A DNA stretch of 64,000 nt from Armatimonadota bacterium (GTDB taxonomy: Bacteria; Armatimonadota; Fimbriimonadia; Fimbriimonadales; Fimbriimonadaceae), in the NCBI GenBank assembly GCA_016223145.1, contig JACRPN010000006.1:1-64000 (forward strand). The letters run 5' to 3'. Below the pieces are notes generated by a model, which made no database searches, was not told where the DNA came from, and worked only from the letters and a program-made list of their open reading frames with translations. Made by a program: the position numbers and the translations under genes. Shown here in pieces: positions 35,576 to 54,181 of this stretch. Every line of letters starts with the position of its first letter. The stretch's first letter is position 1.

Positions 35576-38500
35576 CTAGTCTGGGACTGTAACTGGGCCA
35601 GAGGACGCTGCCTCCGAAACGTTGCCCGAAGCGTCGACCGCATAAATCCGATAGACATACACGGCGCCAGGAAGTAGCAAAGCATCGGTTAGCGTGGCAG
35701 TAGCGCCTGTTGCCGACGTCGTCGTGATCCTGATCCATCCTGCGGTTCCGCCTTGTTTCTGGCGCTCGAGGATCAGCGACTGTGTTCCTCCAGGCACCGT
35801 GCAGGTGATCTTCACGCGCGCGCCGCTGGCATCAAACGAGGCAGCCACATTCGTAACGGGCCTGGCCGACATCCGAATGGGAGATCCTTCGACCATCGCA
35901 GTTGATTCCGACTTCAGTCCCGCGGAGTTGGTCGCAACGACGCTGTACCGGTAGGACTCGCCGAGGTTCGTCCCATTGTCTTCCAACAAGACTTGCCCGG
36001 CATCGTTCGTGCTCCGAACGACTTGGATCGCCGCCGGCAAGGTGTGCTGGGGTAACCGGAAAGATGGCGGCCTGCCAGCGCCTCCGGGCCCCCCGGAACT
36101 CACCGGTGGCGCCTGTATGGTTGTCCGGTAGACCTCATAGGTCACGACTTCCTCTTCGACCCGCCCTGGATCGAGCTTCAGAACGATCTTGCCGTCTGAG
36201 GTCGGGGAGACTGCTCGGAGCACCGGGATGCTGGGGGGCATGCTCGGCTTAATTTTGACCTTGCCGACGGCCGAGGCGCCCGCATAGCCCCAGCGATTCA
36301 CGGCAACGATCTTGTAGTAGTAGACGGCTGCCTGGCCACGTGTTGTGAGGTCGACAAAGCTCGTTGCGCCGGGACTTGTTTCGCCAAGCAGCACAAAGTC
36401 GTCGTCTGGCGGCAGATTGTCCATTCTGAATTCCCTGGCAAGTCCTCCAATTCGCACCGGGGCTCGCTGCGCGGATCGCGCGCCCGGACGTATTTGACCT
36501 GGACCCGGACGAGATTGACCGGATGCAAAGGAGAGAGCAGGGCTTGAGGTCAGGCTCGAAGTTAAGGTCCCGCCTCCGCCAGACGAAGCGACGAGACCTG
36601 ACCCGATTGCGCGGAGTACGCGATAAGTGAGTTTCGAGGTGAACGAAGGCTCGTTCCAGGTAAGCGTGACCTTTCTACCGTAATTTGTTGGAGCCGCGGT
36701 CAGGTTCAACCGTGCGTTAGGGTTTGACCTCTTCAGCCGGCGGTTGACAATTTCATTTGCCTTGCTCGCTTTGGAAGACGCTCCGACGAGTGACCCTCTT
36801 GAGCCGAAAACCCCTGCCTCAGGCTGCATACGGATGGCGTTCGAGTACGGTCCCTTCATGATGTTGTCGAACTGTGCCGTTGTCTCCGGTGCTTCCTCGT
36901 CGACGAGCTTGATCGCCGTTACGGAGCTTGGTACAACCTGGGTCGGTACGCCGATTGGCTCACTTTCAAAGGGCACCCCCGATCTCGAGTTGCTTCTTAA
37001 CACGGGTGTGATCCGATAGCGAACGTATCGATCCAGCGGTGCATCCTTGTCGACGAGGTTCCAGATTGCTGCAGGCATGGGCGGCTGCTTGAGAGCGCCC
37101 GTTCGGCCTTGGAAGTCGCTTGGCCCATGCGTTGGAGAACCCGCCAGTTCTTGAGATTCCCCCCTACCGATAGTGGCCAACCATGCTGCCAGATCCTTGT
37201 CCAAAGTGGCCTTGTATTGCTCTTCGCCGACGAATGCGCGTACGAAGCGGTCCCATTCCGGCCTTAGGGCGCAAAGGTCGGAGACCTTAAGGCCAGCGAA
37301 GGTGCGGTTGCCGACAGGAACAGCCGCGACCGGCGTCCAGGGCGCGTTTTGGGCCTCAGCATCTTGACGCTCTATCGTGTAAGAGAAGCTAATGTGGGAG
37401 GTGGGCGCCCCGTCCGAGATTCCGAGGGGCGGCGCCCACATCACATTGACTTCTGGCCTCGCGACTTTGGGGTCGACCAGGCGTGCGATCACAGTGCCGT
37501 CAGCCGAGGGTGTCGCGATGTTCTTCGTTTCGATGTCAACGTCTACGGGATCGCTCATCCGCTCGAACAGATCCACGGATTGGACGCGGTAAACGACTTT
37601 TGCGTCCACGGGTGCGCCACCGTCTGTGTAGCTGATCAGATTGGCGGCCAACTTCCCATCTTTGGTTTCCGATGCGGTCAAGACGACAAGTCGATTCCTG
37701 TTCAGCTGCTCGAAAGGACCGTCTCCGACTTTCCGCGATACCAGGAACCGTAGGGGCCCCTTCTTCGTTTCGTCGTAGCCAGCCGGCAGATCGATGTGCA
37801 GGTCGATCTTTGCCTGAAGCAGGATGGAGCCTCCCGGAGTGGCGCCCGGTTTGGGCAGTCGCGCTCTCTGGCCGGTCTGGACCGGTTTGCTGACCACGGG
37901 TGCATCGACTTTGGGGTCGGAGCCGACGGTTACCGAGGCTGAACCGACTGAAACCTCTTGGCCATTGAGCATGCCTCGGACCTCATATTGGTAGGTTTTG
38001 CCGATCTGTACGGCCGTATCCATGTACGTGAGACCAAGATCGGCGGCGGCTCCCGGGCTGAGGCTGGCGACCATCATCATTTCGTCGCGAGCATCCCGCG
38101 TGGCCTCATCTTCGTCCTTGGCTTTCTTTTGGGCGGCGCCACCCGCAGGAAGCTTGCCCTCCTTGATTCGCCCGAAATACCCCGCCAAAGTTGGATTTGC
38201 CAGAGAAGCCCTCATCATTCGGGTTTCTACCGGTCCCCTTTGGTCGGCAATCGCCTGCCGGGAAACCGCCTCCAAAGCGGCAAATTCGGCTTTCGAACTA
38301 AGCCGCTGCCTTGGGGCAACGGCGGGTTCAATCCGGATTGGCCGAAAGGCCGTGGGGGTGCTGTTGCGGACTTTCGCCGACGCCACGACTTCTTGTCGGC
38401 TGACGCGGGCAAAGGGCTGGCTACCCTCCTGGCGGTAGATTCGGAAGCCACCATCGGGCATCGAACCGCTCTCAACGAACCAACGAAGCTGAACGCGCGG

Positions 38501-38641
38501 CTTGTCGCCCACAAACGAGGCTGCGAACACCGTTCCCTGTGGCGCCAGAACAGGGCGCAGGTCGATTCCGATGACTCGCCAGGCGATAGCCAGCGAGGCG
38601 ATGCTCGCAAGACCGATCAACGTGAGATAGCGTCTATTCAT
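35576..38641 (-). CDS. Large secreted fibronectin type III-like protein
   Basis: 1021 residues from ATG 38641, with a GGAG site; the longer reading from 38680 overlaps the previous stop. A signal peptide (YLTLIGLASIASLAIAWRV) leads to a wholly extracytoplasmic chain. At least four FN3-like units are visible by their Y-x-Y/V endings and T.TWNEP starts, for example VTLTWNEPSFTSKLTYRVLR, YYKIVAVNRWGYAG, SYRYSVVATNSAGLKSES and VYVYRIYAVDASGNVSEAA. The first 400 residues are less clear. No catalytic motif is seen. It is probably a surface or matrix protein. It follows the 1118-residue beta-rich gene by 35 bp and is co-transcribed from the promoter carrying the 42105-42132 element. Confidence 0.8.
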   Translation of the reverse strand: MNRRYLTLIGLASIASLAIAWRVIGIDLRPVLAPQGTVFAASFVGDKPRVQLRWFVESGSMPDGGFRIYRQEGSQPFARVSRQEVVASAKVRNSTPTAFRPIRIEPAVAPRQRLSSKAEFAALEAVSRQAIADQRGPVETRMMRASLANPTLAGYFGRIKEGKLPAGGAAQKKAKDEDEATRDARDEMMMVASLSPGAAADLGLTYMDTAVQIGKTYQYEVRGMLNGQEVSVGSASVTVGSDPKVDAPVVSKPVQTGQRARLPKPGATPGGSILLQAKIDLHIDLPAGYDETKKGPLRFLVSRKVGDGPFEQLNRNRLVVLTASETKDGKLAANLISYTDGGAPVDAKVVYRVQSVDLFERMSDPVDVDIETKNIATPSADGTVIARLVDPKVARPEVNVMWAPPLGISDGAPTSHISFSYTIERQDAEAQNAPWTPVAAVPVGNRTFAGLKVSDLCALRPEWDRFVRAFVGEEQYKATLDKDLAAWLATIGRGESQELAGSPTHGPSDFQGRTGALKQPPMPAAIWNLVDKDAPLDRYVRYRITPVLRSNSRSGVPFESEPIGVPTQVVPSSVTAIKLVDEEAPETTAQFDNIMKGPYSNAIRMQPEAGVFGSRGSLVGASSKASKANEIVNRRLKRSNPNARLNLTAAPTNYGRKVTLTWNEPSFTSKLTYRVLRAIGSGLVASSGGGGTLTSSLTSSPALSFASGQSRPGPGQIRPGARSAQRAPVRIGGLAREFRMDNLPPDDDFVLLGETSPGATSFVDLTTRGQAAVYYYKIVAVNRWGYAGASAVGKVKIKPSMPPSIPVLRAVSPTSDGKIVLKLDPGRVEEEVVTYEVYRTTIQAPPVSSGGPGGAGRPPSFRLPQHTLPAAIQVVRSTNDAGQVLLEDNGTNLGESYRYSVVATNSAGLKSESTAMVEGSPIRMSARPVTNVAASFDASGARVKITCTVPGGTQSLILERQKQGGTAGWIRITTTSATGATATLTDALLLPGAVYVYRIYAVDASGNVSEAASSGPVTVPD

Positions 38642-38676
38642 GAGTTTCTCCAGGTCGTGTTTGGAGGCTAGACAAG

Positions 38677-41600
38677 TCAATACACTCCGGGGGTCCCAAC
38701 CTCGAAGTCAGCGTGGAGAGAGAAGTCTTTTCGGCCAACGGAAAGCCACGCATCGGCGCGGCCCTTGGCGGCGAAACCCACGCCCTCCACGTATTTGGCG
38801 CCTACGACCGCGGCGACTCCACCGCTAACGTCGACGTTTATGGGGCCAAGCGTTCCTGTGAAACTTGCCGCAGCGCTGAAGCCGAGTGCACCCGATAGCG
38901 AGGTTCCACTTGATTTCTTCGAGACGTAGAGCCCACACCAAGCCGTGATGTCAGCGCTTGCGGCGACATTGAGCTTTTCCCAGCCGAATTCCGCGCCAAA
39001 GTGCATCCCGACGATCATTCCGAACTTGAGGTCGAAGGAAGATCCCACGAGCTTGTGGTCCGTATCGGGGCCGTATTTGAGAAGAACATCCATTCCCAAC
39101 TGGCCATAGGCCTGGCCGACTGGCGTCGTGACAGTGACCGACACGGGGTTTGTGAAGGATGGCTGGCCGAAGTCCGGTACGCTCAAGGCGTCGCCCGCCT
39201 GGAAGTGAATCTGCCTTTCATCGATCTGAAGGCGGAACGTGCCGTTCGCGGCGATGACTGGGTTTGCCTTGGTGGGGAAGTTCAGGTCCGCGCTTAGGCT
39301 GGCAAGAAACTCCTTCAAGGCCGCATCGTAATGGATGTTCCCGTGAATCAACCGGTCCTGGGCAGGCGGGTTTGCCGCCGTCAGGAGATAGCACTTGCCG
39401 TCGAGGTCGATCCAAAATCCGTTGCCGAAGGAGGCCGTTAGGACGAGCTCGCCCCAGAGGGTGTACTGGTCAAGGGTTCGAACCCCGACCCCCGCGCTCA
39501 CAATCCATGCGTCGGGCTGGTTCATTCCAGGTGGGCGAGGCACGATGTCGTAGTCTTTTGCCGGAACGCCAATCTGGGCCACAGTCGTGTCCTTGGGAAG
39601 GATGTTCTTCGCAATCGCCCCCATGAATTTGTGAAGTTCGAGGCCCGTGTTGCCGAGCTTGATTGCCGTCGAAATGGAGGCCGTGCCTCCCACGTACCAG
39701 CCATCCTTCGAAGCAAGGAAGTCGATGCCTATGCCTGCGCCAGCGGGCCCAAAACAGTTAAGGAAAAGGTCGACCTTTCCCTTGATCATGTTGACCGGCT
39801 GATTTCCGGCACTGTTGAAGTAGGTGGTCCAAGGTTGGTTTTTAGCGACCCAGCCCGTTGTTGACGTGATGGTCTCTGAATTCAGTGAGCCGGAGATCCT
39901 CCCAACCTTCGGTACGTCGATATCGACCGTCAGCCCGTTCAGGCTCACCGTTGGAGTTCCTGAGCCGCCATTGATCTCTAGCCCGTCAAAGCCAATGCCG
40001 CCTGAAACCGGCAGGCTGGCGATTGACACGCCGCCCGTCAGAGTCACGCTGGGTCCTGCACCTAGTGCAAACTTGTCGACCAGGATGGCGACTGGTCCGA
40101 ACCTTATGGTCTTTGGCGTCGGGAGGTCGACACCAATCTGGCCGCCGACCCAGTCCCCATTGGTGTCGATACCTACGTCCTGAAACGTGACCACGAAACC
40201 CTTGAGCTGTTTGAGAGCGGCGAAGTTTGTGTTGTCCGGCACTCCAAGAGTTCCTGTGATCAGGAACGTCGCCACTTGATTCGTGTACTGAATACTGCCT
40301 TTATCGATTTGAAGCTGGAGGCCAAGCTGCTGGATCGTTACGGGATCGGTAGGGTCTACCGTCAAGAAGTACGTGCCGGTATTCGTCAGGCCGGCGCTCA
40401 GGTTGAGTTTCGTATTGCTCAGGTTGGTGAGAGTGATGTATCCGTCGGCCCGGAAGTCTGTGATGGCGTTCTTGAGAAAGGAAATGGAGACGCTCGTGAC
40501 TCCGGTGTTCTGAGAGTTCAACCCAGGCAGTTTGAGGGTCGTTGGGTTGCCTTGCAACGACACAGACCCGCTGATCCCGGCCGAATCGAGCACGCAGTTG
40601 TCGAACCCAATGGTTCCGATTTGGTCTGGCAATTCCAGCGTGGCTTTCTTGATATAGAGGCCCATCCAGCTTGGTGTGGCAATGAAGTCGAGGCCCTTTC
40701 CAGTGGGTGGATCGAACGCCTTGGCGTTTGGGTCGAGGTCGAGGGCGACGTTGGGCCCGCTGCCACTGGCTGGCGCGGGAATACTGAGATGGAACTTCTT
40801 CCAATAGACGTCGATGGCCGAAGCCTGTGGTGGGAAGGTAATGGTAACGTTCGGCTTCCCGATGGAAGGCTGCGAAGTATTGACGGGCGCCGAAAGAGTG
40901 ACCGTGATATCGCTGATCTTGACTCTGCCTCTGTTCGGGTCGCCTTCGGGTTTCGTGCCGAAAGCTACCGGCAGCACCCAGTCGAGATTGATGGTTCCGG
41001 TAACGAGGCCATTGGTGATCTTGCCGGTCGCACCCTTGATCTCGACGCCGAAGTTCGACGGGTTGAGGCAATCACGCAGCTTCCTCGCCGGAGCGAGATT
41101 GAAAAGTCCCGTTGAGGCATAGAGGACGCTGTCGTTGTTAAGGCTGAGCGAGAAGTTTGCGCACGATGGTTGCCCTTCCTCATCGATCGAGAAGCCGCTT
41201 GCAGTCACCCAGAGCTCATCACCCTTCTTGAGAGCAAGATCGCCAAGCGGAATCGCTACGGTAACTTGTGCGTTGGCACCATCGACCGAGAACTTTGAAG
41301 TCGGCGTGTTGTTCTGGACGCTGCGCTCGAAGCTTGCGGTGAAGGACCCATCGACGATTCGAATTCCATAGAGCAGCTGGACGTCCTTGGCCTGGAATCC
41401 CACGGCCGTCTTGAAGGTGCCCCCCTCTTCAATGTCCAGAGTCTTGATGAGAGCCTTGACCTGTCCAGGCTTCGCCGGATCGTCGGACGACATGTTCAGG
41501 GCGACTTCCAGGCCGCCAGATGCCACCGAATTGGCGGTTGTTTCCTCAAATCTCAGGTACCTCACGTCCGTCTGCTGCACTTTGCGCAGCATCACAGACA

Positions 41601-42033
41601 GCACCGTATCTTTCTTGATCGTAAAGCCGACGGACCCAGGCAGGATTCCCTTTATGGGTTGAGTGTCGGCAGTGAATTTGTAGGTACCGCCGGTGACTTT
41701 GATGGGGCTCTGCGCCTGAGAGCTGTGAAGGAGCTGGGAATAGTTGATGCGGCCAACCTTCTTCTCCTTTTGAAACGCACGAACATAGATGTCCCCGCTT
41801 CCGCTGGAGTACTTGGAGCCGGAGTCTGGGCCAGCCATGCTGGTTCGATCCGTCGTCTTGATGTAGACGTCGAAGCCTTTAGGGGAGGAATAGTCGCCCA
41901 GCAGCATCAGCACCTCTTCCCCTTGCCTGCCCGTGGCGTGAGCGGCGCAAAGGAGAATGGCAACCACAGACAAAACTCCAACTCCCCGGAGTTTTGAACG
42001 CGAAAGCGTAAGCAAGCTGAGATTCAGGTTCAT
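38677..42033 (-). CDS. Very large secreted beta-rich protein of unknown family
   Basis: 1118 residues from ATG 42033, with an AGAGGAACG ribosome site. Signal peptide RGVGVLSVVAILLCAAHATG. The mature chain consists of repeated amphipathic beta strands with alternating hydrophobic residues (LPDQIGTIGFDNCVLDSAGI, GLTVDIDVPKVGRISGSLNS, GKCYLLTAANP), with hardly any long helices and few cysteines. The C-terminal 200 residues (LVGSSFDLKFGMIVGMHFGA, SADITAWCGLYVSKK, SLHADFEVGTPGVY) look like barrel or beta-sheet repeats. I do not recognise the family. It heads an operon with the FN3 protein and is divergent from the AAA/WD40 gene. Confidence 0.75.
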   Translation of the reverse strand: MNLNLSLLTLSRSKLRGVGVLSVVAILLCAAHATGRQGEEVLMLLGDYSSPKGFDVYIKTTDRTSMAGPDSGSKYSSGSGDIYVRAFQKEKKVGRINYSQLLHSSQAQSPIKVTGGTYKFTADTQPIKGILPGSVGFTIKKDTVLSVMLRKVQQTDVRYLRFEETTANSVASGGLEVALNMSSDDPAKPGQVKALIKTLDIEEGGTFKTAVGFQAKDVQLLYGIRIVDGSFTASFERSVQNNTPTSKFSVDGANAQVTVAIPLGDLALKKGDELWVTASGFSIDEEGQPSCANFSLSLNNDSVLYASTGLFNLAPARKLRDCLNPSNFGVEIKGATGKITNGLVTGTINLDWVLPVAFGTKPEGDPNRGRVKISDITVTLSAPVNTSQPSIGKPNVTITFPPQASAIDVYWKKFHLSIPAPASGSGPNVALDLDPNAKAFDPPTGKGLDFIATPSWMGLYIKKATLELPDQIGTIGFDNCVLDSAGISGSVSLQGNPTTLKLPGLNSQNTGVTSVSISFLKNAITDFRADGYITLTNLSNTKLNLSAGLTNTGTYFLTVDPTDPVTIQQLGLQLQIDKGSIQYTNQVATFLITGTLGVPDNTNFAALKQLKGFVVTFQDVGIDTNGDWVGGQIGVDLPTPKTIRFGPVAILVDKFALGAGPSVTLTGGVSIASLPVSGGIGFDGLEINGGSGTPTVSLNGLTVDIDVPKVGRISGSLNSETITSTTGWVAKNQPWTTYFNSAGNQPVNMIKGKVDLFLNCFGPAGAGIGIDFLASKDGWYVGGTASISTAIKLGNTGLELHKFMGAIAKNILPKDTTVAQIGVPAKDYDIVPRPPGMNQPDAWIVSAGVGVRTLDQYTLWGELVLTASFGNGFWIDLDGKCYLLTAANPPAQDRLIHGNIHYDAALKEFLASLSADLNFPTKANPVIAANGTFRLQIDERQIHFQAGDALSVPDFGQPSFTNPVSVTVTTPVGQAYGQLGMDVLLKYGPDTDHKLVGSSFDLKFGMIVGMHFGAEFGWEKLNVAASADITAWCGLYVSKKSSGTSLSGALGFSAAASFTGTLGPINVDVSGGVAAVVGAKYVEGVGFAAKGRADAWLSVGRKDFSLHADFEVGTPGVY

Positions 42034-42104
42034 GTGCGTTCCTCTGCGGCAACCCGTTCAGCGTTGCCTGCTTGGCGATTACCCGTCAGCTTGCGCCAAG
42101 GAGT

Positions 42105-42132
42105 GTGACCAAACCGTGACGAATGTCGTCAC
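42105..42132 (-). promoter_or_regulatory. Three-half-site operator-like element, site 1
   Basis: Half-sites GTGAC lie at 42105-42109 and 42116-42120 and GTCAC at 42128-42132; the last two are part of a perfect 10-bp inverted repeat (AACCGTGACG and CGTCACGGTT, 5-bp spacer). Read toward the 42033 gene the order is GTGAC, GTCAC, GTCAC with offsets 12 and 11 bp, followed by ACTCC. The proximal half-site is 71 nt from the ATG. The same geometry recurs at 48030-48057. It also lies 25 nt from the divergent 42158 start. Confidence 0.7.
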
Positions 42133-42157
42133 GGTTGCTCTAGTAACATGACCTCAG

Positions 42158-45100
42158 ATGGATCAGGAGGGACCTTACTTTCGGCCCGGTGGCACGCTAG
42201 ATCCAGCTTCGCCAAGCTACATCGAGCGGGCAGCAGACCGCCAGTTGCTGTCGGCGCTACTAGCGCACGAGTACGTCTACCTCCTCGACTCACGCCAAAA
42301 GGGAAAGTCGTCGCTGGTTGCAAGGACGATCGAGAAGCTGCAGGAAGCAGGCGTGACGACCATCAAGCTCGATCTCCAGCGGATTGGCGCGAACGTCACA
42401 CCTGACCAGTGGTATGCAGGCATCCTGGTCAGCGTGGGACAACAGCTGGGAAACTCGAAAGAACTCTTTGATTACTGGCAAGCGCACCAAATGGTCGGAC
42501 CCCTTGCGCGATTCATCGGTACTCTCCACGAGGTCTTGTTAGCGAATACAAGCGGCCCAATTGTCTTCTTTATCGACGAAATTGACTTTGTGCGCGCATT
42601 GCCCTTTTCGACCGACGAGTTTTTTGCTGGCATCCGCGACTGCTACAACCGTCGTTCGGAATCCGAATCCTTCCAACGATTGACTTTCTGTCTGGTCGGC
42701 GTCGCAACACCCGGTCAACTCATCCGCAATCCGGAAGTAACCCCCTTTAACGTAGGGCAACGCATTGAACTCTCGGACTTTGGGCTCGAGGAAATCCGCA
42801 GCTATGGGGCAGAGCTCGAGACTCCGGAGAGGGATGGTGCCCAGCTCATCGCGAGGGTCCATTATTGGCTGAACGGGCACCCTTACCTCACTCAGGTCCT
42901 CTGCAGCCACATCGCGGCAGACAAGTCAATCCGGTCCCCTGGAGCAGTAGACCGTTTGGTGCGAGCAGTCTTCTTATCACCCGAATCAAGGCAGAGTGAG
43001 CCCAATTTCGCCGATGTGGAGCGACGAATTCTCGAGCCGAACCTGCCAGACCTTGCTCCTGATGAAAGTCGTGCACAGGTGCTTGATCTGTACGGCAAAC
43101 TCCTACGAAACAAAAGCGTTGAGAAGTCGGCAGAGAACCCAATCGTGGCCACTCTGCGACTCGCTGGAGTTGGTCTTGAAGATAGACACACACTGGTTGT
43201 ACGAAATCGGCTCTATCGAATCGTCTTCAACGAGAAGTGGCGGCGTCAAAGCCTGCCAGACGCCGAATCACGACGTGTTCGAGGTGCGGCGAGGCTTGCG
43301 GTTTTACGGACCGCCTTGGTCGCTGGGGCAATCGTGATCGGCACATCAAGTGTTGCTGTCGCGATGTGGAGGCTATCGCGCGACAAGTCAAGGGCGAACA
43401 TTGCCCTGAGTCAGCAAAGCAGGGAACTTGAGCGGGCTGCCGGAGAAAGAGAACAAGCCCTTAAGGACCTCAAACTCAGGAACACCGAGCTTACGGAGAT
43501 ATCAGACGAGCGCCAGCGTGCCTTGAGCAGGCTGGAAACTCAAACCCGTGAACTGCTGCGTCTCTCGCAAGAGAAGGAAGAGGCGCTTGTAAGCCTCCGG
43601 AAGAAGACTGAGGACCTGACCTATTCCGACTATATCGGGAAGATCGCCGCTGCCGAAAGTGAACTCCAGATCAATCGGTGGACCGAGCTTCCAAGCATCA
43701 TTAAGGAAACCGAGAACAACCCGAATCGTGGTTGGGAATGGGGGCATTTCGCGCTAGCGGTGCACTACGGTACGCGGGAAGACGCATTCACCAAGTGGAG
43801 CGTCATCGAGTCCCGGGCCAATGGAGACCCTTCGGTCGTCACGCAAGTCGGCGTCTATGAAATCCGGTCTGGCCGATACGTTCGAACTCTCTCTTTCCCT
43901 ATCAGCCGTCCAGTAACACCACAGTTCCGCAGTGGCAACTATCGCGTGATGTGCGTCGAATCGACGCGGGGCAGCGCCATTTTTGATGCGAAGACCAACA
44001 AACAACTGACAAAGGATCGAGCTTATTCTACGATCTTCGACTTGGAACCTCGTCGACGACTCTATCTCATCTCTGAGCCGGAGACGAGTGACGCTGTTCA
44101 GCTTCGTACGATTGACGGGGACAAGCTGATTTGCGCCTATGCTGGACCCGTAGAGGCGCGAGCAGCCCGGATCCTTCCCGACGGCTCCATCATCGGGATT
44201 TTCGCGACCGAAAAGGACAACGTCGGCGAAGTTCGACATTGGGATCGTGCCGGCAAACTCCTGGATTCAGCTCCTTCCGATCAGCAATGGGCGAACTACG
44301 GGAATGGCCTAACGGTGAGCTCCGACGGCAAGATGTACGCAGCCTGGGGACACAACGTCAAGGTCGAAATACGAGCAGTTCAGGGGCACCGTAGGATTTG
44401 CGCTCTGCCTGACTTTCAGCGCACCGTAACGGACCTGCGGTTCTCTGATGATGGCAGGAGAGTCTTGGTGGGATGTGAAGACGGGATCGTGTACCTGTTT
44501 GAGGTTGAGACCGGAAAGATAGTGTCACGATTGTACGGAAGCCACGCGGCGATCAGGAGTATTGCCTTTCTGAACTCAGGCACGGGATATGCGGCACTGG
44601 ACGGCAGAGGATTCCTAAGAACCTGGAATGCCGTTCCGGAAGAAGGAACCAAGTCCTACTTGGAACCTGGAACACGTGCGACGCAGGCCACTGTCGATGC
44701 AAAAGGGAGGGCGCTGTTGACGGTTCTCGACGATCGTAGGTTGGCCACCAGGGATCTCTTGACCGGCGACTCAAAGGTGGTGCCGATCGCCAACCCAGAG
44801 CAGGTTGCCGTGATATCGCTGGCCCAAGGCTGCGACCAGTACTTCCTTGCTCGGAACAACGGAACCATCGAGCGGGTCTCTGGACTCACTCTAAAGCAGG
44901 CCGCTCGGAACCGGATCTTCTCTTCAAAGCCGACACGCATCGATTTCTTGCGCGGGGCAAAGCGGCTATTCGTCGCCACAGAGGATCGCAGGTTTGCGCT
45001 TCTGGATTCGACGTCACTCAGTTTGGTCGCCCGCATTGAACCACGAGCGATCCACAAACCAGAGGACTCGAACGGCGTCGACCTCAATGACACGTTCGCC

Positions 45101-45727: not shown

Positions 45728-47467
45728 CGTCTCGTATGCTGGAACTCGGAATTCCACGCGTCCATCTCTTGCCAGCGATACGAGGCCAGCCGACCAGAGT
45801 CGCAACCGAGTTGTCTTCGAAGCGAACTCCTCTCCTTGAAGTAGCCTTCTCACCTCGTCCTCGGTGTCCTTGTCTCGCGTTGCCTCGGCTAGGATTCTGT
45901 GGAGGTGGTCGCTAAAGGGTCCATCCTCCCAAGCTATGTTGCTGCGAAGCTCATCAATCGATCCACCTTGGTGCAGGAACGAAAACACCTTGCGAGCAAG
46001 ATAAGGATGGCCCTTAGTGAGCTCAAAAACATAGGGTGAGAGATGGCTGACAGGTGCCCCGTACTTGGCGCCAAGTTCTCTGACCTCGTCTTCAGTGAAA
46101 TCGCGCAAGCTGACCCTTGTTCCCACATTGAATGGCGATTGATTGATGTCTTTGATGAACAAGTGGGCCTCGTTGGCGTAGCTGATCAGTATTGACATTC
46201 GTTTCCAAGGTCCCTCGGGCTCCAGCAAGCGCCGGTTGTGCCAGCTCCTTACGAGGCCGAAGAAATCGTCAGCGTAGTCCGTCGCAAAAACGCGGTCCAC
46301 TTCGTCCATGGCCCAGCACACGCGTCCATCCGTTTGACGCAGGCAATTGTCAATCTGCTGATCCAAGTTCGAGTTTGGCCCGACCCATTCGTTCCAAGAA
46401 GGATCATAGGTCAATCCCAGTTGAGTCGCAAACGAGTGGATAAGCGTTCGATAGAAGGCTGGAGCCCGGGCAATTTCCGTCTTGCCGAGCGTTTGAAAGT
46501 CTGTGACGACAACTTTCACGCCCCTCTCGCGGAGCCGTCCGGAAGATCTCGCAATAAGCGAGGTCTTGCCGACTTGGCGTGGACCAAAAACCAACACCAC
46601 GGGCTCTCCCGCAGCCAGGGAGGCATTTGTGACTTGGTCTGCTCTTCGTTCCACATAGAACCGCGATTCCGCCGATAGGTGATCGACTGACTCGGGGCGC
46701 AATGTCTCGATACCAGTAGATGACGTGTAGAACTTATCCGGTCTAGTCATCCCTTGGGCCTCGATGGCCTCCAGCGAAGCAATCGATGGCGTCTGTCCGA
46801 AGTTGTCGTCCAGCATCTTCTCCAGAGCCTCATATTGCTTCAGGGCCATGGCCTGGTTATCAATAGCGGCATAGCTTCGGATAGAAGCTCGAAACACCTC
46901 CTCACGTTGGGGTGCCAAGACGATGGCCGCGTTAGCAATGCGGACGGCTTCGACGCCTTGTCCACTGCCAGCCAGACTCAAACACAAACTCTCAACAGTC
47001 TTGCAGAAGACTTCCTCAAGTTGACGGCGGTATGGATAGACCCAATCGGCTTCGATTGGCAAGAGGAGTGGCCCGCCATAGAGAGCAATCGCTTCTGTGG
47101 CGCGCAGGTTCTCGCTTTGATCCGGATGGCCACCTTCAAGTAACGACAGGAATCTCTCCACATCAGTTTCGAAAGCGCTCGTAGAGAGTATCGTCTTCGA
47201 TAGCGCCGTGCTCATGTATGCTCCGCGCTCGACTCCGACTTCGATGGCATCTCTCACGTCGGCGATGGCTCTTCTCAAGCATTGAGCCTGACGGTCACCA
47301 TCCGAGTCGGGCCAGAGCAGGTCTCGCAGAGTGGCGTTCGCGATCTCTCGTCCTTTGTTCAGAGCCAGCAAAGCCAGCAATGCGGCAGCCTTTCGCGAAC
47401 GAAACGAGGCTTGCACTGCATCAGGCGATAACACTTCGAATCGCCCCAGCATTCGTATCTGCCACAT
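45704..47467 (-). CDS. SARP-type transcriptional regulator with AAA-like ATPase domain
   Basis: 587 residues from ATG 47467, with an AAGG site; 42 extra residues are possible from 47593. N-terminal winged helix (MWQIRMLGRFEV, FRSRKAAALLALLAL, LRDLLWP, LRRAIADVR) at about 1-95 and a BTAD helical domain about 99-230 match the AfsR/SARP activators. Residues about 265-500 are an AAA-like ATPase with P-loop GPRQVGKTS at 295-303 and Walker B CWAMDEVD; INQSPFNVGTRVSLRDF matches SPFNVG/TPFNVG in the 42158 protein. SARP proteins bind direct repeats spaced one helical turn, which fits the 11-bp repeat in both nearby promoters. A regulator of the flanking operons is proposed. Confidence 0.85.
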   Translation of the reverse strand: MWQIRMLGRFEVLSPDAVQASFRSRKAAALLALLALNKGREIANATLRDLLWPDSDGDRQAQCLRRAIADVRDAIEVGVERGAYMSTALSKTILSTSAFETDVERFLSLLEGGHPDQSENLRATEAIALYGGPLLLPIEADWVYPYRRQLEEVFCKTVESLCLSLAGSGQGVEAVRIANAAIVLAPQREEVFRASIRSYAAIDNQAMALKQYEALEKMLDDNFGQTPSIASLEAIEAQGMTRPDKFYTSSTGIETLRPESVDHLSAESRFYVERRADQVTNASLAAGEPVVLVFGPRQVGKTSLIARSSGRLRERGVKVVVTDFQTLGKTEIARAPAFYRTLIHSFATQLGLTYDPSWNEWVGPNSNLDQQIDNCLRQTDGRVCWAMDEVDRVFATDYADDFFGLVRSWHNRRLLEPEGPWKRMSILISYANEAHLFIKDINQSPFNVGTRVSLRDFTEDEVRELGAKYGAPVSHLSPYVFELTKGHPYLARKVFSFLHQGGSIDELRSNIAWEDGPFSDHLHRILAEATRDKDTEDEVRRLLQGEEFASKTTRLRLWSAGLVSLARDGRVEFRVPAYETLLRTTLL

Positions 47468-48029
47468 GCCGATGCCTTTTACCCGATGCGTTCGGGTTTG
47501 ATTGCCCGACCGGTCGACATCCGAGGTATCGAAGGCCCGACCATGAAGCCCCACCATGGAGAGAACCGGGTTCGTAGAGGCCAGGTTCGACACAGCAGCG
47601 AATGGGAGCTCTCACCTTAGCCAACCTCATCGCCATAGCTGTTGGTCGACGTTGCTCTGCCGCATCCTTTGGGGCAACAGTTTTTTTGCCAATCTTTCAA
47701 CTCGCGCTCAATGAGGGGGAGAACAGAGTCCTACGTCAGGACCTCGTTGATCGCTGCTAGGTCTATCTTGCGTGGGCGGAACCCCTGAGTTCATCGACCT
47801 TCGGCCACGGTAGGTTCGTTTACACCGCCTAGGTGAATGGCGTCCAAAACCTTCTGGGCCCCCAAATGAACTCCACTCAGTCTCCAAACCGTGGCACCGT
47901 GGGCCTGAAACACCGATTCACGACGCATCCCATGCGCTTCGGCCCCCGGTTCTCGTTTGCGGGTCTGTGAACGGGCGTATCGGCGATTCTCACAAACCGG
48001 ATTGAATGGGTCGTTTCACTTCCTGCTGC
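47468..48029. other. Divergent intergenic region between the regulator and the SGNH operon
   Basis: No gene seen. The part nearest the regulator encodes its possible alternative N-terminus to 47593. No clear promoter box was identified for either side apart from the element at 48030-48057. Confidence 0.45.
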
Positions 48030-48057
48030 GTGACGGACTTCGTCACGTTTCCGTCAC
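48030..48057 (+). promoter_or_regulatory. Three-half-site operator-like element, site 2
   Basis: Half-sites are GTGAC 48030-48034, GTCAC 48042-48046 and GTCAC 48053-48057, offsets 12 and 11 bp, followed by GCTCC. The first two lie in the inverted repeat CGTGACG/CGTCACG with a 5-bp spacer, as in site 1. The proximal half-site is 73 nt from ATG 48131 (64 nt from ATG 48122), against 71 nt for site 1. Confidence 0.7.
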
Positions 48058-48130
48058 GCTCCCAATGTTAGGCTACGAAATGCAGATTCCAGGAACTCCC
48101 TGAATCCAAGCTGATCTGCTGATGACGCCT

Positions 48131-51100
48131 ATGAGAAACACTGAATGCAGGAATGTCGAATCTAGAAGAACTGGCAGCAATAGGGCACGCGTCAGGCCAA
48201 GTCTCGTCTCGACATGGGTCTCAGTAGCCTTCATCTTCGCCGCCACTCCGACAAGCGCACTTCTTGTGGGCCACCAGCGCGCCATTGGAGGATCGGGTTC
48301 CCAGCTCCGTCCGCGCAATGACCAAGCTTCTCTTCGCCAGGCTCCCTTGTCCAAAGAGCGCCAACGGCTTGCACAACGAACCGCTGTTCTGCGCCTTGTC
48401 GGAGTTGACGATCTTAGTCAACTGGGCTCGTTGAACCTCGGAGCCCTTTCTCAAAGCGCTAGGGGGTTGACGACAATCCTGGCGGAGGGCGGGCTGGCAA
48501 TCCCATCTGCAAGGTCTGGCGGCAAGGCGGCACCGTATGCTCGAGCGAAGCAGCGAGTCGGCACGGTTTGGCAGTCTCTTAGCGGGACCGGAACGTCGCT
48601 AGAGGTCATTACGCCCCAACAGCTTCAAACAAGGCTCGGGCAGTTCAAGCAATCCCAGCAAGGCAACACGGCTCAGGGTCTGACGATCGACCTGAACGCT
48701 GCCTATTGGGTTGCGCATGAGATAAACATCCCAGACAACTACACCGTCGTACTCAAGTACCCACATGAACGGCTGGTATTGATCGCAGACAAGATCACCT
48801 TTGGCCAAAACGTGCAGTTCACCTATGAACGAACGCCTGTGACACCGTTGGTCAAGCCCTCGCCAACCCCATCCGCACCAGGTGCTCAGATTGACGAAAA
48901 TACACTTGAGAAGGGCGGCACCGGAAAGCCGGGCTTTGCTGGAGGCGCCGGCCAATCGGGCCTGCACACCCCCGACAAATTCAAGAATGATCCCGGACCC
49001 GAATATGAGTTCTGGACCCTTGATGCCGAAGGACCCAATCCAATCATCGACGCCGGCGGTGAGGATGGCCAAGACGGCGGCCCCGGAGGTGACGGTGGCC
49101 CGGGAGGCAAAGGCGGAAAGGGCCTTAACGCCAAGCGGCTCGCAAACAACGGATTCGACGGCGGAACAGGTGGAAAGGGAGGGCGCGCCGGCGACGGAGG
49201 GAACGGCGGCACCGGCGGTAACGGCGGCCGAGTTCGGATCTTTGCGCCACCATCCGAAATCCTCCAAATCGGTGGCAAGGGCTACACTTTCGAGGTTTCC
49301 GGAGGCAAAGGCGGTGCCGGTGGTCCCCAGGGCAGCGCGGGCGCCGGAGGCGAGGGGGGTGATGGTGGCGACGGCATTAGCGGTGTTACCAATAAGAGCC
49401 CAGGTCGAAAGGGTGCTGGCGGCCCGCAGGGCGACCCGGGCAATCCAGGTGCCGCTGGGCAGGCTGGCACGGTCGCGGGCACCGATGCGGTTCAGTTGAT
49501 TCCAATCTCGCCAAATGACTATGCCGGAGAGCTCTGGAAGCCCCTCATCGGGCAAGTATCCGGCAGCAATCAGGTTTCGTACGAGGTCAGGAAGGGGGAT
49601 CAGGTCACGCTTACTGGCAAGAACTTCGCTCCTGGGGACACCGTTTACATTCGATGCAACGGGCAGATGGCGCCTTGTCAGACGGTGTTCATCTCAGGGG
49701 GCAACAATCCGCTGGACGACAGTCTCCTCACTTTCATGGTCCCAGCTTCCGATGGGGCAAAGGCTCCGATCCAAGTTGTGCGTAACAGCGGCGTGAAATC
49801 TTCAACGGCAACACCGCTCTACGTGTTGCCGGTCTTGGACCCATCTCTTAACGGTCTACGCGCCAAACCCAACGACACGATTACGCTGACGGGCAGTGGT
49901 TTCACACCAACGATGTCTGTGTTCGCCTTTTGGGAAGGTCAATCCGCCGATGTTTCGCTAGACGAAAACAACGCCAATAGCCTAACGTATGTCAATGCCA
50001 CCCAAGTCAAGTGGCGCGTGGTTAGGCCAGCAAACAAAGCTTGTGGCGACCAGGCAAGAGAGCCGGTCAAGCTTGAGGTGAGATCGATCCCAGAAAACAA
50101 ACGAAGCAACCAGATTTCGGCAAACTATGACAACTATGTTATGCTGGTTGTCGGTGACTCGATGGCTTGGGGAACCGGCCTTGCCGACTCCCAAAAGCAC
50201 CACTACTTGCTGGCAGAGCACATTAAGAACACCGTCCTCAGCCAAAACAACCCTGGCCGAATGCAACTCAGTCGTGTCGTGGTTGCTCACACAGGCGCCA
50301 TCCTCGGTTGGGACAGTCAGCAAAGTCAGGAGCAGGCTGCAATCGATGGCGAGGTGCCGACGAAGTTCCCTTCGATCAAGAAGCAATTGTCTGATCACGA
50401 AGGCGAGCTCGCTCCGTACATCGACCTTGTCGTCATGTTCGCAGGAATCAATGACTTTGGAATGACCAACATCTTTAACCCAGGCACATCCTTCTCGACA
50501 ATAGAGTCGAAGGCCGACCTGTACCTTGGAACTCACCTTACCGCATGCCTCAAGCTTGCACTCCAGAAGATGCCTACCTCCAAAATCGTGGTCTGTGCCT
50601 ATCATCGGCCGGTAAGTGTGGATACGGATTGGGGAAAGCTGAAGCAGTTTGAACTCCTCGACTGGTACCTGCAGAAGGAGATGTGGAAGGGATTCGCCGG
50701 TGGCGCACCTTATAACGACACGAATCGTGACACTGTGGTAAAGAACGCCGAAAAGTGGCACGAATACTCCTCGCAAAGGATCGCGCAAACGATATCCAGT
50801 GTCAACGTTGGCCTGGCATCGCCTCGCGCATTCTTTGCCAATCCTTACCCGGTCACTACCGCTGAGCAAGAGAAATACGTGAACAGCATTGCCATGTGGA
50901 CGGGCAAGAATCGACACGTTTGGAGTCCAGAACCGTCGCTTCACAAGAAGTGTGGCCACAACCACAATAACTCTCTCAACTTCGCCCATGATCCAGATGA
51001 AATTGACCAAGTGATCTCCGCACGCATCGACGCGGTGAACACCCACTCTTTGAGAATCAACGAGGACACAGATGATGACCGTAAGCGGGTTGGCTACTCG

Positions 51101-51175
51101 AGCGCGTCTTGTCATCCTAACGCAAAGGGTGCTTACGACTACTTCGAAGCAATGCGAGTGGCTCTTGGTTTATAA
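48131..51175 (+). CDS. Secreted collagen-like/IPT/SGNH-hydrolase protein
   Basis: 1014 residues from ATG 48131 (48122 is an in-frame alternative adding three residues; neither has a clear ribosome site). A long n-region leads to the signal TWVSVAFIFAATPTSALL. Residues about 255-450 are a Gly-rich region with GGx triplets (GGPGGDGGPGGKGGKG, GGTGGNGGR) including collagen-like GPQGDPGNPGAAGQAG. Then follow two IPT/TIG-like units (GDQVTLTGKNFAPGDTVY and NDTITLTGSGFTPTMSVF). From about 670 is an SGNH/GDSL hydrolase: GDSMAWG with the nucleophile Ser, GIND, and SCHPNAKGA with the catalytic His. It may deacylate a surface polymer. It is first gene of the tpr-barrel/csgG-like operon. Confidence 0.85.
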   Translation: MRNTECRNVESRRTGSNRARVRPSLVSTWVSVAFIFAATPTSALLVGHQRAIGGSGSQLRPRNDQASLRQAPLSKERQRLAQRTAVLRLVGVDDLSQLGSLNLGALSQSARGLTTILAEGGLAIPSARSGGKAAPYARAKQRVGTVWQSLSGTGTSLEVITPQQLQTRLGQFKQSQQGNTAQGLTIDLNAAYWVAHEINIPDNYTVVLKYPHERLVLIADKITFGQNVQFTYERTPVTPLVKPSPTPSAPGAQIDENTLEKGGTGKPGFAGGAGQSGLHTPDKFKNDPGPEYEFWTLDAEGPNPIIDAGGEDGQDGGPGGDGGPGGKGGKGLNAKRLANNGFDGGTGGKGGRAGDGGNGGTGGNGGRVRIFAPPSEILQIGGKGYTFEVSGGKGGAGGPQGSAGAGGEGGDGGDGISGVTNKSPGRKGAGGPQGDPGNPGAAGQAGTVAGTDAVQLIPISPNDYAGELWKPLIGQVSGSNQVSYEVRKGDQVTLTGKNFAPGDTVYIRCNGQMAPCQTVFISGGNNPLDDSLLTFMVPASDGAKAPIQVVRNSGVKSSTATPLYVLPVLDPSLNGLRAKPNDTITLTGSGFTPTMSVFAFWEGQSADVSLDENNANSLTYVNATQVKWRVVRPANKACGDQAREPVKLEVRSIPENKRSNQISANYDNYVMLVVGDSMAWGTGLADSQKHHYLLAEHIKNTVLSQNNPGRMQLSRVVVAHTGAILGWDSQQSQEQAAIDGEVPTKFPSIKKQLSDHEGELAPYIDLVVMFAGINDFGMTNIFNPGTSFSTIESKADLYLGTHLTACLKLALQKMPTSKIVVCAYHRPVSVDTDWGKLKQFELLDWYLQKEMWKGFAGGAPYNDTNRDTVVKNAEKWHEYSSQRIAQTISSVNVGLASPRAFFANPYPVTTAEQEKYVNSIAMWTGKNRHVWSPEPSLHKKCGHNHNNSLNFAHDPDEIDQVISARIDAVNTHSLRINEDTDDDRKRVGYSSASCHPNAKGAYDYFEAMRVALGL

Positions 51176-51214: not shown

Positions 51215-53182
51215 ATGAGTAAGCGAGTACGAAAGCATGCCTGTGTCGGAGCCTGGAGTCTTGCGGCACTGGCACTCGGCCAACAAAACATCAAACCCCT
51301 TCGGATGGAGGGAACAGATGCGGGAAAGCTCAATAACGAGGGCATCGAACTATCTCTTAAAGGCAAGTTTCGAGAGGCTGTCACCAAGATCGACCTGGCT
51401 AGTGTGAATGACCTAACTAGTCCGATCCCTTGGATCAACGGATCCTGGCTTCAGCTTGAGCTTGGAAGGCACGCGGCGGCGTTCACTGCTATCAGGCAAG
51501 CACAGCTGATGGGTGATGCTTCTCTTAGGAGGCTTACACTGGACATTGAGGTCGAAACCGCTCGGGGACAGCTTGACAAGGCATGGAGCGGCGTTCGCCA
51601 GGCGGAGTTTCAGAGGCCTGAAGAGCCCTATGTCCATATGGCAAGGGCCAAATGGGCTGACTCGGCTTCGCGGTCAAGAGTTGCTGAGAGATCTCGCTGG
51701 CAAGCCTATCGGTTTGGGCGCGAAGTTGTCGTCGATTCCAAGCCCTTCAGCACATCGGATCTGCAAGGGGACTTGGGTCCAAAGGGGGCAGGTGTAGTGG
51801 AAGGAAACGTGCAGTCCTTTGGAGGCTCGGGCGCGGTTGCGGCGAGCGGAAAGTGGGTCTCGGAGACGCTTGGCGGGCAGGTCGAAGCAAAGAACACGGC
51901 CGTCCAGGCGCAGCTATCGGCCGATGGCGCTTTGGGCACCCTTTATGGAAACTACCGGACGCTAGACAGTGAGCGTCCTGGGCCGCCGAACACCCTCTTC
52001 GTGTCAACCCCGGGGGCGGCGCTTCGCTACGAGGATTGGATGCTGGGATGGCAGCGGCGCTTTGGCGACTTTACGCTGAATCTCAACCGGCGCGAGGCCA
52101 TAGCGGATCTGCGGCCCGCTGCGGGAAGTCTCTTCGTCCCCAACATCGAGCAGCGGCAATGGATGGCGGAGGGGCGTTGGGACCGCGGACCGTGGACCCT
52201 TGGCGGAGGAACAAGCGTGGTTGATCGCTGGTCTGTGTTGAGCCCCGCGATCGAGCCGTTCGAGGACGTGTTTCCCAAGGGAAGCACGAGAATCTCCCAT
52301 GGCTATTTCGTCTATCGAGCAGACCTATCTCAACGAAGCCGCTTGATCCTCGGAGGAACGGTGGAGGAAATCGGGGGTCACACGCATGGACTGCTTTCGG
52401 GGGAGCTTGCCCTCAAGATTTCGGGTGAAAAGTACTTCAGGATTGGCACAAAGCCCACAATGAATCGAGCCGGGACTGTCCTCTACCCTGAAGATCTTCG
52501 TGCAAGACCTCTTGGCGATAACACGATCGACCGCGTTCTCAACTCTGCCCTAACGGTCAACCGCACGACGAGCGTCTTCTCGGCTTTTGAAAAGCAAGAT
52601 GAGGTGTTCGCGAACTTGGATCTCATAGCTTCCGAAGGGAAGTCCCTTCGAATCGGTGGCTTCAGGAAGCAGTTTTCAAGCGGGTTGTTCATGACAGGTG
52701 ACCCTCAGCAGCAAGCGTCGCTCGATCTGTTTCCAATGGCTCAAGGCCGTGTGCAAGGTGTCGAAGCGACATACGCTCACACGGTGTCCTCCAAAGTTGA
52801 GTTGGGTGCCTATTTTGTTGCGCAAGAGAGTGAGGGAACGATCGGGACTGGAGGTGGCGGATTCAGGACGCGATTGTCCAACACGTCAGATCGCCTGGGG
52901 GGAATCACCCTCGACTTCGCCGCCGGATCGACGTCAATCGCAGTGTTCTGGTCCTACATGGGACCTCAAACCCAATACTCTTATCGGTTGAATGAGGCCA
53001 CCATGACCAAGGAACTGCACCTCGAAAGAGTCGGATCCTTATCGAGCGTTAACGTCGTCGTCAAGACTCCGCTCAAGCGAGGCAGCCTCGAGTTCGCCGC
53101 CCTAAATCTCACGGGCAGCTCCTTCTACAAGGGCTATGGCGCTTCCCCATACTTCGCTGTCGGATACTCCTCGAGGTTCTAG
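51215..53182 (+). CDS. TPR-domain outer-membrane beta-barrel protein
   Basis: 655 residues from ATG 51215 with GGAAGGG upstream, 39 bp after the SGNH gene. After a signal peptide (WSLAALALG), residues about 30-160 are TPR-like helices (NNEGIELSLKGKFREAVTKI, ASLRRLTLDIEVETARGQLDKAW). From about 200 the chain consists of alternating beta strands and turns (GQVEAKNTAVQAQLSADGAL, SLRIGGFRKQFSSGLF) and ends YFAVGYSSRF, the terminal Phe typical of barrels inserted by BamA. This layout resembles secretion or surface-export porins such as PgaA/BcsC-type TPR-barrels, though no sequence identity to those is claimed. It is 6 bp from the csgG-like gene. Confidence 0.75.
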   Translation: MSKRVRKHACVGAWSLAALALGQQNIKPLRMEGTDAGKLNNEGIELSLKGKFREAVTKIDLASVNDLTSPIPWINGSWLQLELGRHAAAFTAIRQAQLMGDASLRRLTLDIEVETARGQLDKAWSGVRQAEFQRPEEPYVHMARAKWADSASRSRVAERSRWQAYRFGREVVVDSKPFSTSDLQGDLGPKGAGVVEGNVQSFGGSGAVAASGKWVSETLGGQVEAKNTAVQAQLSADGALGTLYGNYRTLDSERPGPPNTLFVSTPGAALRYEDWMLGWQRRFGDFTLNLNRREAIADLRPAAGSLFVPNIEQRQWMAEGRWDRGPWTLGGGTSVVDRWSVLSPAIEPFEDVFPKGSTRISHGYFVYRADLSQRSRLILGGTVEEIGGHTHGLLSGELALKISGEKYFRIGTKPTMNRAGTVLYPEDLRARPLGDNTIDRVLNSALTVNRTTSVFSAFEKQDEVFANLDLIASEGKSLRIGGFRKQFSSGLFMTGDPQQQASLDLFPMAQGRVQGVEATYAHTVSSKVELGAYFVAQESEGTIGTGGGGFRTRLSNTSDRLGGITLDFAAGSTSIAVFWSYMGPQTQYSYRLNEATMTKELHLERVGSLSSVNVVVKTPLKRGSLEFAALNLTGSSFYKGYGASPYFAVGYSSRF

Positions 53183-53188
53183 CCAGAA

Positions 53189-54181
53189 ATGATCCTATTG
53201 CTGCCTGCTGCCGCCCTACTTCTTCAACAAGGAAGCGCGCCCGCCAAGCTGCCCGATTTCACTGGGCCGAAGAAGAGGGCTGTTGTCGCCAGCTTCAAGC
53301 TGGCCATCGACAAGTGGACCATTACAGCCACGGCGCCCTCCGGGGGGACAACCGACACACAGGTGACGATTACCCAGACCGATACTCTGGGCGCCGGCGT
53401 GGCGGACATGTTGGTGACGGAACTCATCGCGTCGAAGCGTTTCCTCGTCTATGAAAAGAAGGACGACGAAGACCTCGCTAAGGCCATTGGAGCACGGGGC
53501 GGAGCCGGAACAGAAAGTCAAGGAGAAGCGCCACAAGCCAAAGCGCTAGGTGCGCAAGTCCTCTTGAAAGGTTCAATTACCGAACTATCCTTCAGGAAGA
53601 AGCTCAGCAGCATTGCCATCCCGGACCTTGCAGATGTTGTGGGTGGCGCGGCGAATTTCGTGGCCACCGTGGGCATCGACCTGAAAGTCATCGACATCGA
53701 ATCGGGCTTGATCCTCGATTCGGTTCAGGCAATCGGAAAGGTCGGCGCCAAGTCGAGCACCCTTGGCTTTAAGCTCGAAGGAATCGACTTCAAGCAAACG
53801 ACCTTTGAGGACAGTCCGATCGCCAAGGCGATGAGGGCTGCTGTGCGTGATGGAGTCCAGAAGGTCTGTGCCAGGCTCGACCGTGTTCCGTGGGAGTCAC
53901 GGGTTGCGCTCGTGTCCGAGACTGAAGAAGCGAAGCTGCTGTACCTTGCATTCGGATCGGAATCAAACATTCCGGTAGGCACCGTCTTGGAGGTGTTCCG
54001 TCCTGGCCGCCCCATCGTCGACCCTCAATCGGGCGAAGTGTTAGGCCAAGAAACTGCAAAAATCCTAGGCAAGTGCCGAGTGCAGACGCTGAACCCCAAG
54101 TTCTCCATTGCCGCCATCCTGGAAGGCTCCGACTTCCAAGCTGGAGATGCCGTGAGGCTCCCGCCCAAATCAGGAAGCTGA
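53189..54181 (+). CDS. CsgG-family outer-membrane secretion protein
   Basis: 330 residues. The core matches CsgG/HfaB: KRAVVASFKL, TLGAGVADMLVTELIASKRFLVYEK, ALGAQVLLKGSITELSF, VGIDLKVIDIESGLILDSVQAIGKV, and DSPIAKAMRAAVRDGVQKV. CsgG forms the nonameric channel that exports curli subunits. The C-terminal 100 residues (NIPVGTVLEVFRPGRPIVDPQSGEVLGQE) are an SH3-like extension found in many non-curli relatives. Unusually, the short signal (MILLLPAAALLLQQGS) has no lipobox cysteine, so it would not be a lipoprotein as CsgG is. No CsgA/B/E/F is near. It is the last gene of the SGNH operon. Confidence 0.8.
   Translation: MILLLPAAALLLQQGSAPAKLPDFTGPKKRAVVASFKLAIDKWTITATAPSGGTTDTQVTITQTDTLGAGVADMLVTELIASKRFLVYEKKDDEDLAKAIGARGGAGTESQGEAPQAKALGAQVLLKGSITELSFRKKLSSIAIPDLADVVGGAANFVATVGIDLKVIDIESGLILDSVQAIGKVGAKSSTLGFKLEGIDFKQTTFEDSPIAKAMRAAVRDGVQKVCARLDRVPWESRVALVSETEEAKLLYLAFGSESNIPVGTVLEVFRPGRPIVDPQSGEVLGQETAKILGKCRVQTLNPKFSIAAILEGSDFQAGDAVRLPPKSGS

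Follow-up and report, generated by a model that had tools for sequence, protein, structure and literature searches.

A regulated gene block in an Armatimonadota bacterium encodes a candidate outer-membrane apparatus for exporting or displaying a protein scaffold with an ester or lipid hydrolase

Gene content and conservation of the locus

The window analysed here is a stretch of 64,000 nucleotides at the start of contig JACRPN010000006.1 (assembly GCA_016223145.1) of an Armatimonadota bacterium of the family Fimbriimonadaceae. Its block 35576–54181 holds seven large open reading frames, all of which lie at the coordinates given in a preliminary description of the sequence and form the two structural operons that it proposed (Table 1). 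The first operon encodes an exported beta-rich protein, called BIG here, and an FN3-like exported protein. The second encodes an exported SGNH-type esterase, an outer-membrane barrel with an N-terminal TPR domain (TPR-barrel), and a CsgG-like protein. The two operons are separated by the genes of a SARP-AAA regulator and of an AAA-WD40 membrane protein. The Pfam scan covered all seven proteins and returned nothing significant for BIG, the FN3-like protein, or the TPR-barrel.

Table 1. Features of the block and its downstream flank (window coordinates)
Feature	Coordinates	Strand	Evidence or remark
FN3-like exported protein, 1021 amino acids	35576..38641	-	Second gene of BIG operon
BIG, 1118-amino-acid exported beta-rich protein, distant relative of DUF6603-annotated proteins	38677..42033	-	Open reading frame, tblastn, profile
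SARP-type promoter box (predicted), BIG operon	42100..42133	-	66 bp from start codon
AAA_35, transmembrane/coiled-coil and WD40 protein, partner of SARP-AAA regulator	42158..45727	+	Pfam; recurrent convergent pair
SARP (BTAD) and AAA_35 regulator	45704..47593	-	Pfam; paralogues in two more cassettes
SARP-type promoter box (predicted), SGNH-barrel-CsgG operon	48029..48062	+	59 bp from start codon
SGNH/GDSL esterase with Gly-rich region and TIG domain, 1017 amino acids, exported	48122..51175	+	Pfam, catalytic motifs
TPR-barrel, 655 amino acids: N-terminal TPR and plug-less TonB-receptor-type outer-membrane barrel (predicted)	51215..53182	+	AlphaFold model
CsgG-family protein with FlgT/TsaP-like C-terminal domain, no lipobox, 330 amino acids	53189..54181	+	Pfam, profile matches
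Small HTH_17 (excisionase/AlpA-like) reading frame	54384..54551	+	Pfam; between system and tRNA-Thr
tRNA-Thr(CGT)	54637..54711	-	Directly downstream of system

The distribution of the genes was compared among 85 genomes of the same family and among 291 genomes of Armatimonadota. Homologues of BIG and of the TPR-barrel are rare in the family, and in genomes G015 and G017 they are neighbours in a single co-directional run of barrel, CsgG-like protein, BIG, FN3-like protein, and zinc phospholipase C, which is preceded in G017 by a PGAP1-type lipase. Eight of the 291 Armatimonadota genomes encode full-length barrels; a partial, weaker match in G209 was not counted, and the remaining phylum-wide matches of the barrel profile were discarded as generic TPR matches. 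In all eight genomes the barrel gene is followed, a few base pairs downstream, by the CsgG-like gene. The close clade of CsgG-like proteins is present in 17 genomes, including all those with a barrel, and wider relatives are found in 55 genomes at an E value of 1e-25. BIG is present in 11 genomes and adjoins an FN3-like gene at each of the 12 loci inspected in Armatimonadota. A genome from a different family of the phylum, G129, has the genes for the CsgG-like protein, BIG, and the FN3-like protein next to one another, without a barrel.

The barrel and BIG share five of the 291 genomes, where 0.3 would be expected (P = 1.5e-6), and the CsgG-like clade and BIG share seven (P = 1.7e-7); the counts ignore shared ancestry, which makes the P values optimistic, and within the family alone the value is 6e-4. 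Two neighbouring operons without a common function would allow the separation of the gene pairs that is seen in several genomes. However, this explanation is largely refuted by the contiguity in G015 and G017, by the co-occurrence, and by a promoter box that occurs in the genome at only these two operons, and we give it hardly any weight. The two operons very probably constitute one envelope system under common control, the parts of which work together, in agreement with the preliminary description, which would have been contradicted had they never co-occurred elsewhere.

Promoter box and regulatory cassette

The promoter element reported previously for the two operons is a 34-bp box located before BIG and before the SGNH gene, with 27 of the 34 positions identical. 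A similarity of this level was reached by none of 1000 dinucleotide shuffles and by none of 973 random window pairs. A 29-bp core of the box matches, with at most two mismatches, only two sites in the 3.87-Mb genome, both at the two operons; since the pattern was derived from these sites, its uniqueness is descriptive, and it is the two sites at paralogous cassettes that provide independent tests. A looser version of the box adds one site, 81 bp before the reading frame of an M43 protease beside a paralogous SARP cassette.

The convergent pair of SARP-AAA and AAA-WD40 genes is present three times in the genome: in the window (42158–47593), on contig C12 (locus L127, 7917–13402), and on contig C14 (locus L126, 11458–16775). 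The SARP-AAA paralogues of the two further cassettes are 42–44% identical. The exported genes divergent from the three cassettes encode the M43 protease, a PD40-repeat protein, and BIG. At both of the other cassettes, the gap between the AAA-WD40 gene and the divergent exported gene holds a box that scores above all of the approximately 480–500 random windows. Five promoters share the pattern GTGA-N9-TCAC-N7-TCAC-N12-A-N3-T, in which the TCAC repeats are 11 bp apart and the A-N3-T element, similar to a -10 element, lies 10 bp beyond the second of the seven-base repeats. In SARP targets from the literature, direct repeats are spaced 11 or 22 bp apart and a -10 element is nearby (PMC10936776). 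The SARP-AAA regulator contains a BTAD domain (60.1 bits, cut-off 22.1) and an AAA_35 domain, and its score for the OmpR-type DNA-binding domain Trans_reg_C is 18.3 bits, below the cut-off of 26.2. Judged from their sequences, the five boxes are predicted SARP-type promoter sites, to which the SARP-AAA proteins may bind.

The AAA-WD40 protein, in which Pfam recognises AAA_35 and WD40, had been counted as part of the surface structure. This assignment probably does not hold. Because the SARP-AAA/AAA-WD40 cassettes are recurrent and share the box, the protein is probably regulatory rather than structural and forms part of a switch with the SARP-AAA regulator.

Components of the putative apparatus

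The AlphaFold2 model of the TPR-barrel (predicted local distance difference test score, pLDDT, 73; predicted template modelling score 0.79) has eight TPR helices, corresponding to about four TPRs in residues 38–172, followed by approximately 22 strands. The structures most similar to it are those of TonB-dependent receptors (Foldseek E value 1.9e-13), with a sequence identity of about 12%, and the comparison with BtuB gives a Z-score of 17.9 and a root-mean-square deviation of 3.5 Å over 391 residues. There is no plug domain in the model and no Pfam plug match: the TPR helices end at residue 172 and the first strand begins at residue 193, so that the segment of about 20 residues between them leaves no room for one. 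According to the model, the protein is a plug-less TonB-receptor-type barrel of approximately 22 strands with an N-terminal TPR domain. The model confirms the barrel recognised in the preliminary description, and its type differs from the 16-strand one of the Pel and PGA systems. PelB-type barrels were not among the fold-search matches listed, which carries no weight.

The barrel fold is that of the importers BtuB and FhuA, and the system could serve nutrient acquisition, with surface lipases and esterases on BIG and the FN3-like protein freeing acyl compounds that enter through the barrel. The several unrelated hydrolase families that accompany the system would suit this function, and its sporadic distribution fits an accessory nutrient system. 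However, the absence of a plug makes the usual TonB-gated import impossible, the block contains no recognised gene for TonB or for an inner-membrane transporter, and known import systems do not involve a protein such as the CsgG-like partner, which renders nutrient acquisition unlikely.

The CsgG-like protein matches the CsgG family (PF03783) with 64.5 bits (cut-off 20.8) over profile positions 28–208 of 210. At its C-terminus, the family profile matches the structure of TsaP with 27.5 bits, and the profile also matches CsgG structures; the score for FlgT_M is 15.8 bits, below the cut-off of 31.2. As regards a possible pore, the lengths of the hairpins in the alignment resemble those of CsgG, and the hairpin faces are not clearly hydrophobic. 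No lipobox was found in the protein from the window or in eight homologues. The same genome encodes a second protein with CsgG and FlgT_C domains (G000:C14:166021-166515; locus L128, 8737–9741) beside a prolyl oligopeptidase, with an FlgT_C score of 27.2 bits at a cut-off of 27. A gene of the same CsgG clade has different neighbours in G130 (locus L118, 9124–14903), where it is preceded by genes for a 942-residue protein of the invasin/Big_1 type and a 629-residue HEAT-repeat protein that matches Vitellogenin_N (E value 1e-11). We found no paper on CsgG in Armatimonadota.

Paralogous exported proteins of about 200 residues follow the barrel and CsgG-like genes in G012 (five copies; locus L017, 4689–7890) and G025 (one copy; locus L018, 12805–13440). 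In these proteins, a conserved SQPG motif follows the signal sequence, and the end, rich in Phe and Trp, is conserved as well; a pair of membrane proteins is encoded after them. These SQPG proteins are likely to be an alternative cargo.

The preliminary description proposed that the CsgG-like channel and the barrel export a curli-like fibre or an exopolysaccharide matrix, which the SGNH enzyme modifies. The CsgG-family domain, matched over its whole length, would be in keeping with such export, as would the resemblance of the TPR-barrel and ring anatomy to PelBC (PMC12141448) and the six SQPG proteins as possible subunits. Nevertheless, curlin repeats (PF07012) gave no match in the genome of the window, with a positive control in E. 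coli, and none of the nine CsgG-like proteins has a lipobox. The barrel has approximately 22 strands, not 16, and the hydrolase partners are lipases and phospholipases. The Pfam scan found no CsgE or CsgF, no polysaccharide synthase, and no inner-membrane Pel components among the seven proteins of the block; the genome as a whole was not searched for them. The export of a fibre or matrix thus has only a small chance of being correct.

BIG has a tblastn match to a DUF6603-annotated protein of Mycetohabitans (E value 4e-6), and the profile of its family matches the homologue from M. rhizoxinica with 185 bits over approximately 660 columns. The Pfam model of DUF6603 does not match BIG of the window and matches one of 11 homologues at an E value of 0.025; a search of PDB sequences with the BIG profile gave no match up to an E value of 1. 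The envelope beta-protein family T2SSN was matched by two of 11 BIG members at E values of 0.02 or weaker, which is too weak to be evidence and was set aside as a lead to a lipid-groove fold. We found no paper on DUF6603, and to our knowledge it has no known function. The FN3-like protein has weak NCBIfam matches to FN3-containing proteins in addition to the negative Pfam result, and its earlier label is weakly supported.

On Mycetohabitans plasmids, an operon encodes, in this order, an FN3-like protein (weak match), a phospholipase D, and BIG. The FN3 profile matches the Proteobacterial partner protein with 15 bits and other partners with less than 7 bits. The N-terminal motif RW...GF.(L/V)YR of FN3-like proteins was rejected as proof of homology for the Proteobacterial partner, since it is a generic FN3 motif. 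Further BIG relatives, each followed by a large protein, are encoded on a plasmid of Azospirillum oryzae (1572 residues; locus L132, 11533–21873) and on pAMI4 of Paracoccus aminophilus (2621 residues; locus L133, 229–11440).

The SGNH protein, described previously as a collagen-like/IPT/SGNH protein, carries the catalytic motifs GDS, GIND, and HPN and a TIG domain (24.1 bits, cut-off 20.9). The region called collagen-like is 33% glycine and matches no collagen family. The protein has no close homologue in the 84 other genomes of the family. In the neighbourhood comparison across Armatimonadota, the constant part of the expected CsgG-barrel-SGNH trio is the barrel with the CsgG-like protein; the SGNH slot directly upstream of the barrel is occupied by a PGAP1/DUF676-type alpha/beta hydrolase in G002, G013, and G017 (loci L016, L019, and L020, of which L016 is in G017). 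A zinc phospholipase C closes the operon in G013, G015, and G017. The second BIG protein of G015 (1836 residues) is a lipase-BIG fusion, in which residues 171–681 correspond to the same PGAP1-type lipase (E value 9e-27). Because four unrelated hydrolase families accompany BIG, a role in ester or lipid processing is the best lead. It is more plausible that the SGNH enzyme belongs to a set of interchangeable lipid or ester hydrolases associated with BIG than that it modifies a matrix.

The phospholipase, lipase, and phospholipase D partners, together with the lipase-BIG fusion, could alternatively belong to an offensive or defensive complex, in which BIG and the FN3-like protein deliver secreted hydrolases against other cells. 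The occurrence on Proteobacterial plasmids and the proximity of integrases to the system in G012 and G017 would be compatible with such a role. It is improbable, however: no immunity-type gene was recognised, the block contains no known delivery machine, and the constant pair of barrel and CsgG-like protein suggests an apparatus of the producing cell's own envelope.

An HTH_17/AlpA-like frame and a tRNA-Thr gene lie directly behind the CsgG-like gene (54384–54711), and tyrosine integrases are encoded near the system in G012 (locus L017, 16230–17351) and G017 (locus L016, 2846–4042), the latter also with a tRNA-Asn on the far side. The HTH_17 frame is possibly a trace of an integrative element, and a mobile origin is possible. 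Attachment repeats were looked for next to the tRNA-Thr gene and not found.

Proposed function and comparison with known systems

We propose, with a probability of about 0.5, that the locus encodes an outer-membrane apparatus under regulatory control for the export or display of a BIG-FN3 scaffold with an ester or lipid hydrolase. The SARP-AAA regulator, probably gated by its membrane AAA-WD40 partner, would switch on both operons through the same box with 11-bp repeats. The TPR-barrel would form an open 22-strand barrel in the outer membrane, with its periplasmic TPR domain recruiting the cargo, and the CsgG/FlgT-like protein would act as a periplasmic ring or adaptor beside it. Together they would export or anchor BIG and the FN3-like protein, after their export by Sec, as a surface scaffold. 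The scaffold would carry a hydrolase, SGNH in this genome, with lipids, lipid-linked polymers, or polyesters as its substrates at the cell surface. The odds that the apparatus exports or displays are even, and the assignment of a lipid or ester as the substrate is tentative. A more specific version, in which a TonB-receptor barrel with its plug swapped for a TPR domain and a CsgG/FlgT-like adaptor display a DUF6603-type beta scaffold holding lipid for interchangeable lipases and phospholipases, is speculative and rather doubtful.

Several observations weigh against the proposed apparatus. The pair of barrel and CsgG-like protein occurs without a detected BIG in G012 and G025, where SQPG proteins are encoded next to it, and in G013, where the neighbours are a lipase and phospholipase C; conversely, BIG and the FN3-like protein occur without a barrel in G023, G028, and G235. 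It follows that the pair and BIG can exist apart and that the cargo is somewhat variable. Lacking a lipobox, the CsgG-like protein is perhaps not inserted into the outer membrane. The structure prediction of BIG suggested by the preliminary description was run from three usable sequences and reached a pLDDT of 35, an unusable model from which no fold was obtained. The GDSL lipase score of the SGNH protein, 28.4 bits, is just below the cut-off of 32.9. Furthermore, the Proteobacterial relatives of BIG have no obvious signal peptide, and the export of BIG is perhaps not universal.

The giant DUF6603-type proteins gain a testable context for their function from an FN3-like partner and four unrelated hydrolase families, to one of which they are once fused. 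If the more specific version is correct, BIG and the FN3-like protein would constitute an ancient lipid-processing module that is also present in Proteobacteria. A TonB-receptor barrel has apparently been reused without its plug, and the predicted boxes make up a clear SARP-type regulon outside Actinobacteria, under a duplicated SARP-AAA/AAA-WD40 cassette. The literature search found no description of this system. All of its outer-membrane parts are built on known folds and its function is a proposal, for which reason we regard the system as a variant of outer-membrane export and display systems and not as categorically new.

The regulator resembles the SARP regulators AfsR and PimR in combining BTAD with an ATPase-type domain and in the direct repeats spaced 11 bp apart upstream of a -10-like element. 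It differs in that the ATPase-type domain is AAA_35, in its pairing with a membrane AAA_35-WD40 protein, and in its putative targets, which are operons for exported proteins and not antibiotic genes. BIG is homologous to DUF6603-annotated proteins over approximately 660 positions, and in Mycetohabitans, too, its gene accompanies those of a phospholipase and an FN3-like protein, whereas the Armatimonadota versions are shorter, apparently exported by Sec, and associated with the CsgG-like protein and the barrel. The predicted barrel has the fold and strand number of the TonB-dependent receptors BtuB and FhuA; in contrast to them, it has a TPR domain in place of the plug and is encoded with a CsgG-like protein.

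The preliminary description had found that no known system matches the locus and had set it apart from curli and Pel, which is borne out by the absence of curlin repeats, a lipobox, a 16-strand barrel, and a lipoprotein PelC. Curli (type VIII secretion) is excluded by the lack of curlin repeats in the genome and of a lipobox on the CsgG-like protein. The likeness to curli and to the HfaABD holdfast anchor, in which the CsgG-family protein HfaB is needed to place surface anchors (PMC6707917), lies in the joint presence of genes for a CsgG-family protein and for exported surface proteins. The differences are those two absences, the extra FlgT/TsaP-like C-terminal domain, and the added TPR-barrel. 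Pel is excluded by the type of the barrel and by the lack of a lipoprotein PelC. In Pseudomonas aeruginosa, the TPR-barrel PelB works with a ring of PelC, and the hydrolase PelA binds the TPR region (PMC12141448). By analogy, PelB-PelC with PelA is the closest working analogue of the proposed apparatus: both have a periplasmic TPR domain joined to an outer-membrane barrel, with the gene for a small partner adjacent and a hydrolase gene in the same operon. In place of the 16-strand barrel and the lipoprotein PelC, the Armatimonadota system has a predicted TonB-receptor-type barrel of approximately 22 strands and a CsgG/FlgT-family partner without a lipobox, and its cargo apparently consists of giant proteins and lipid or ester hydrolases.

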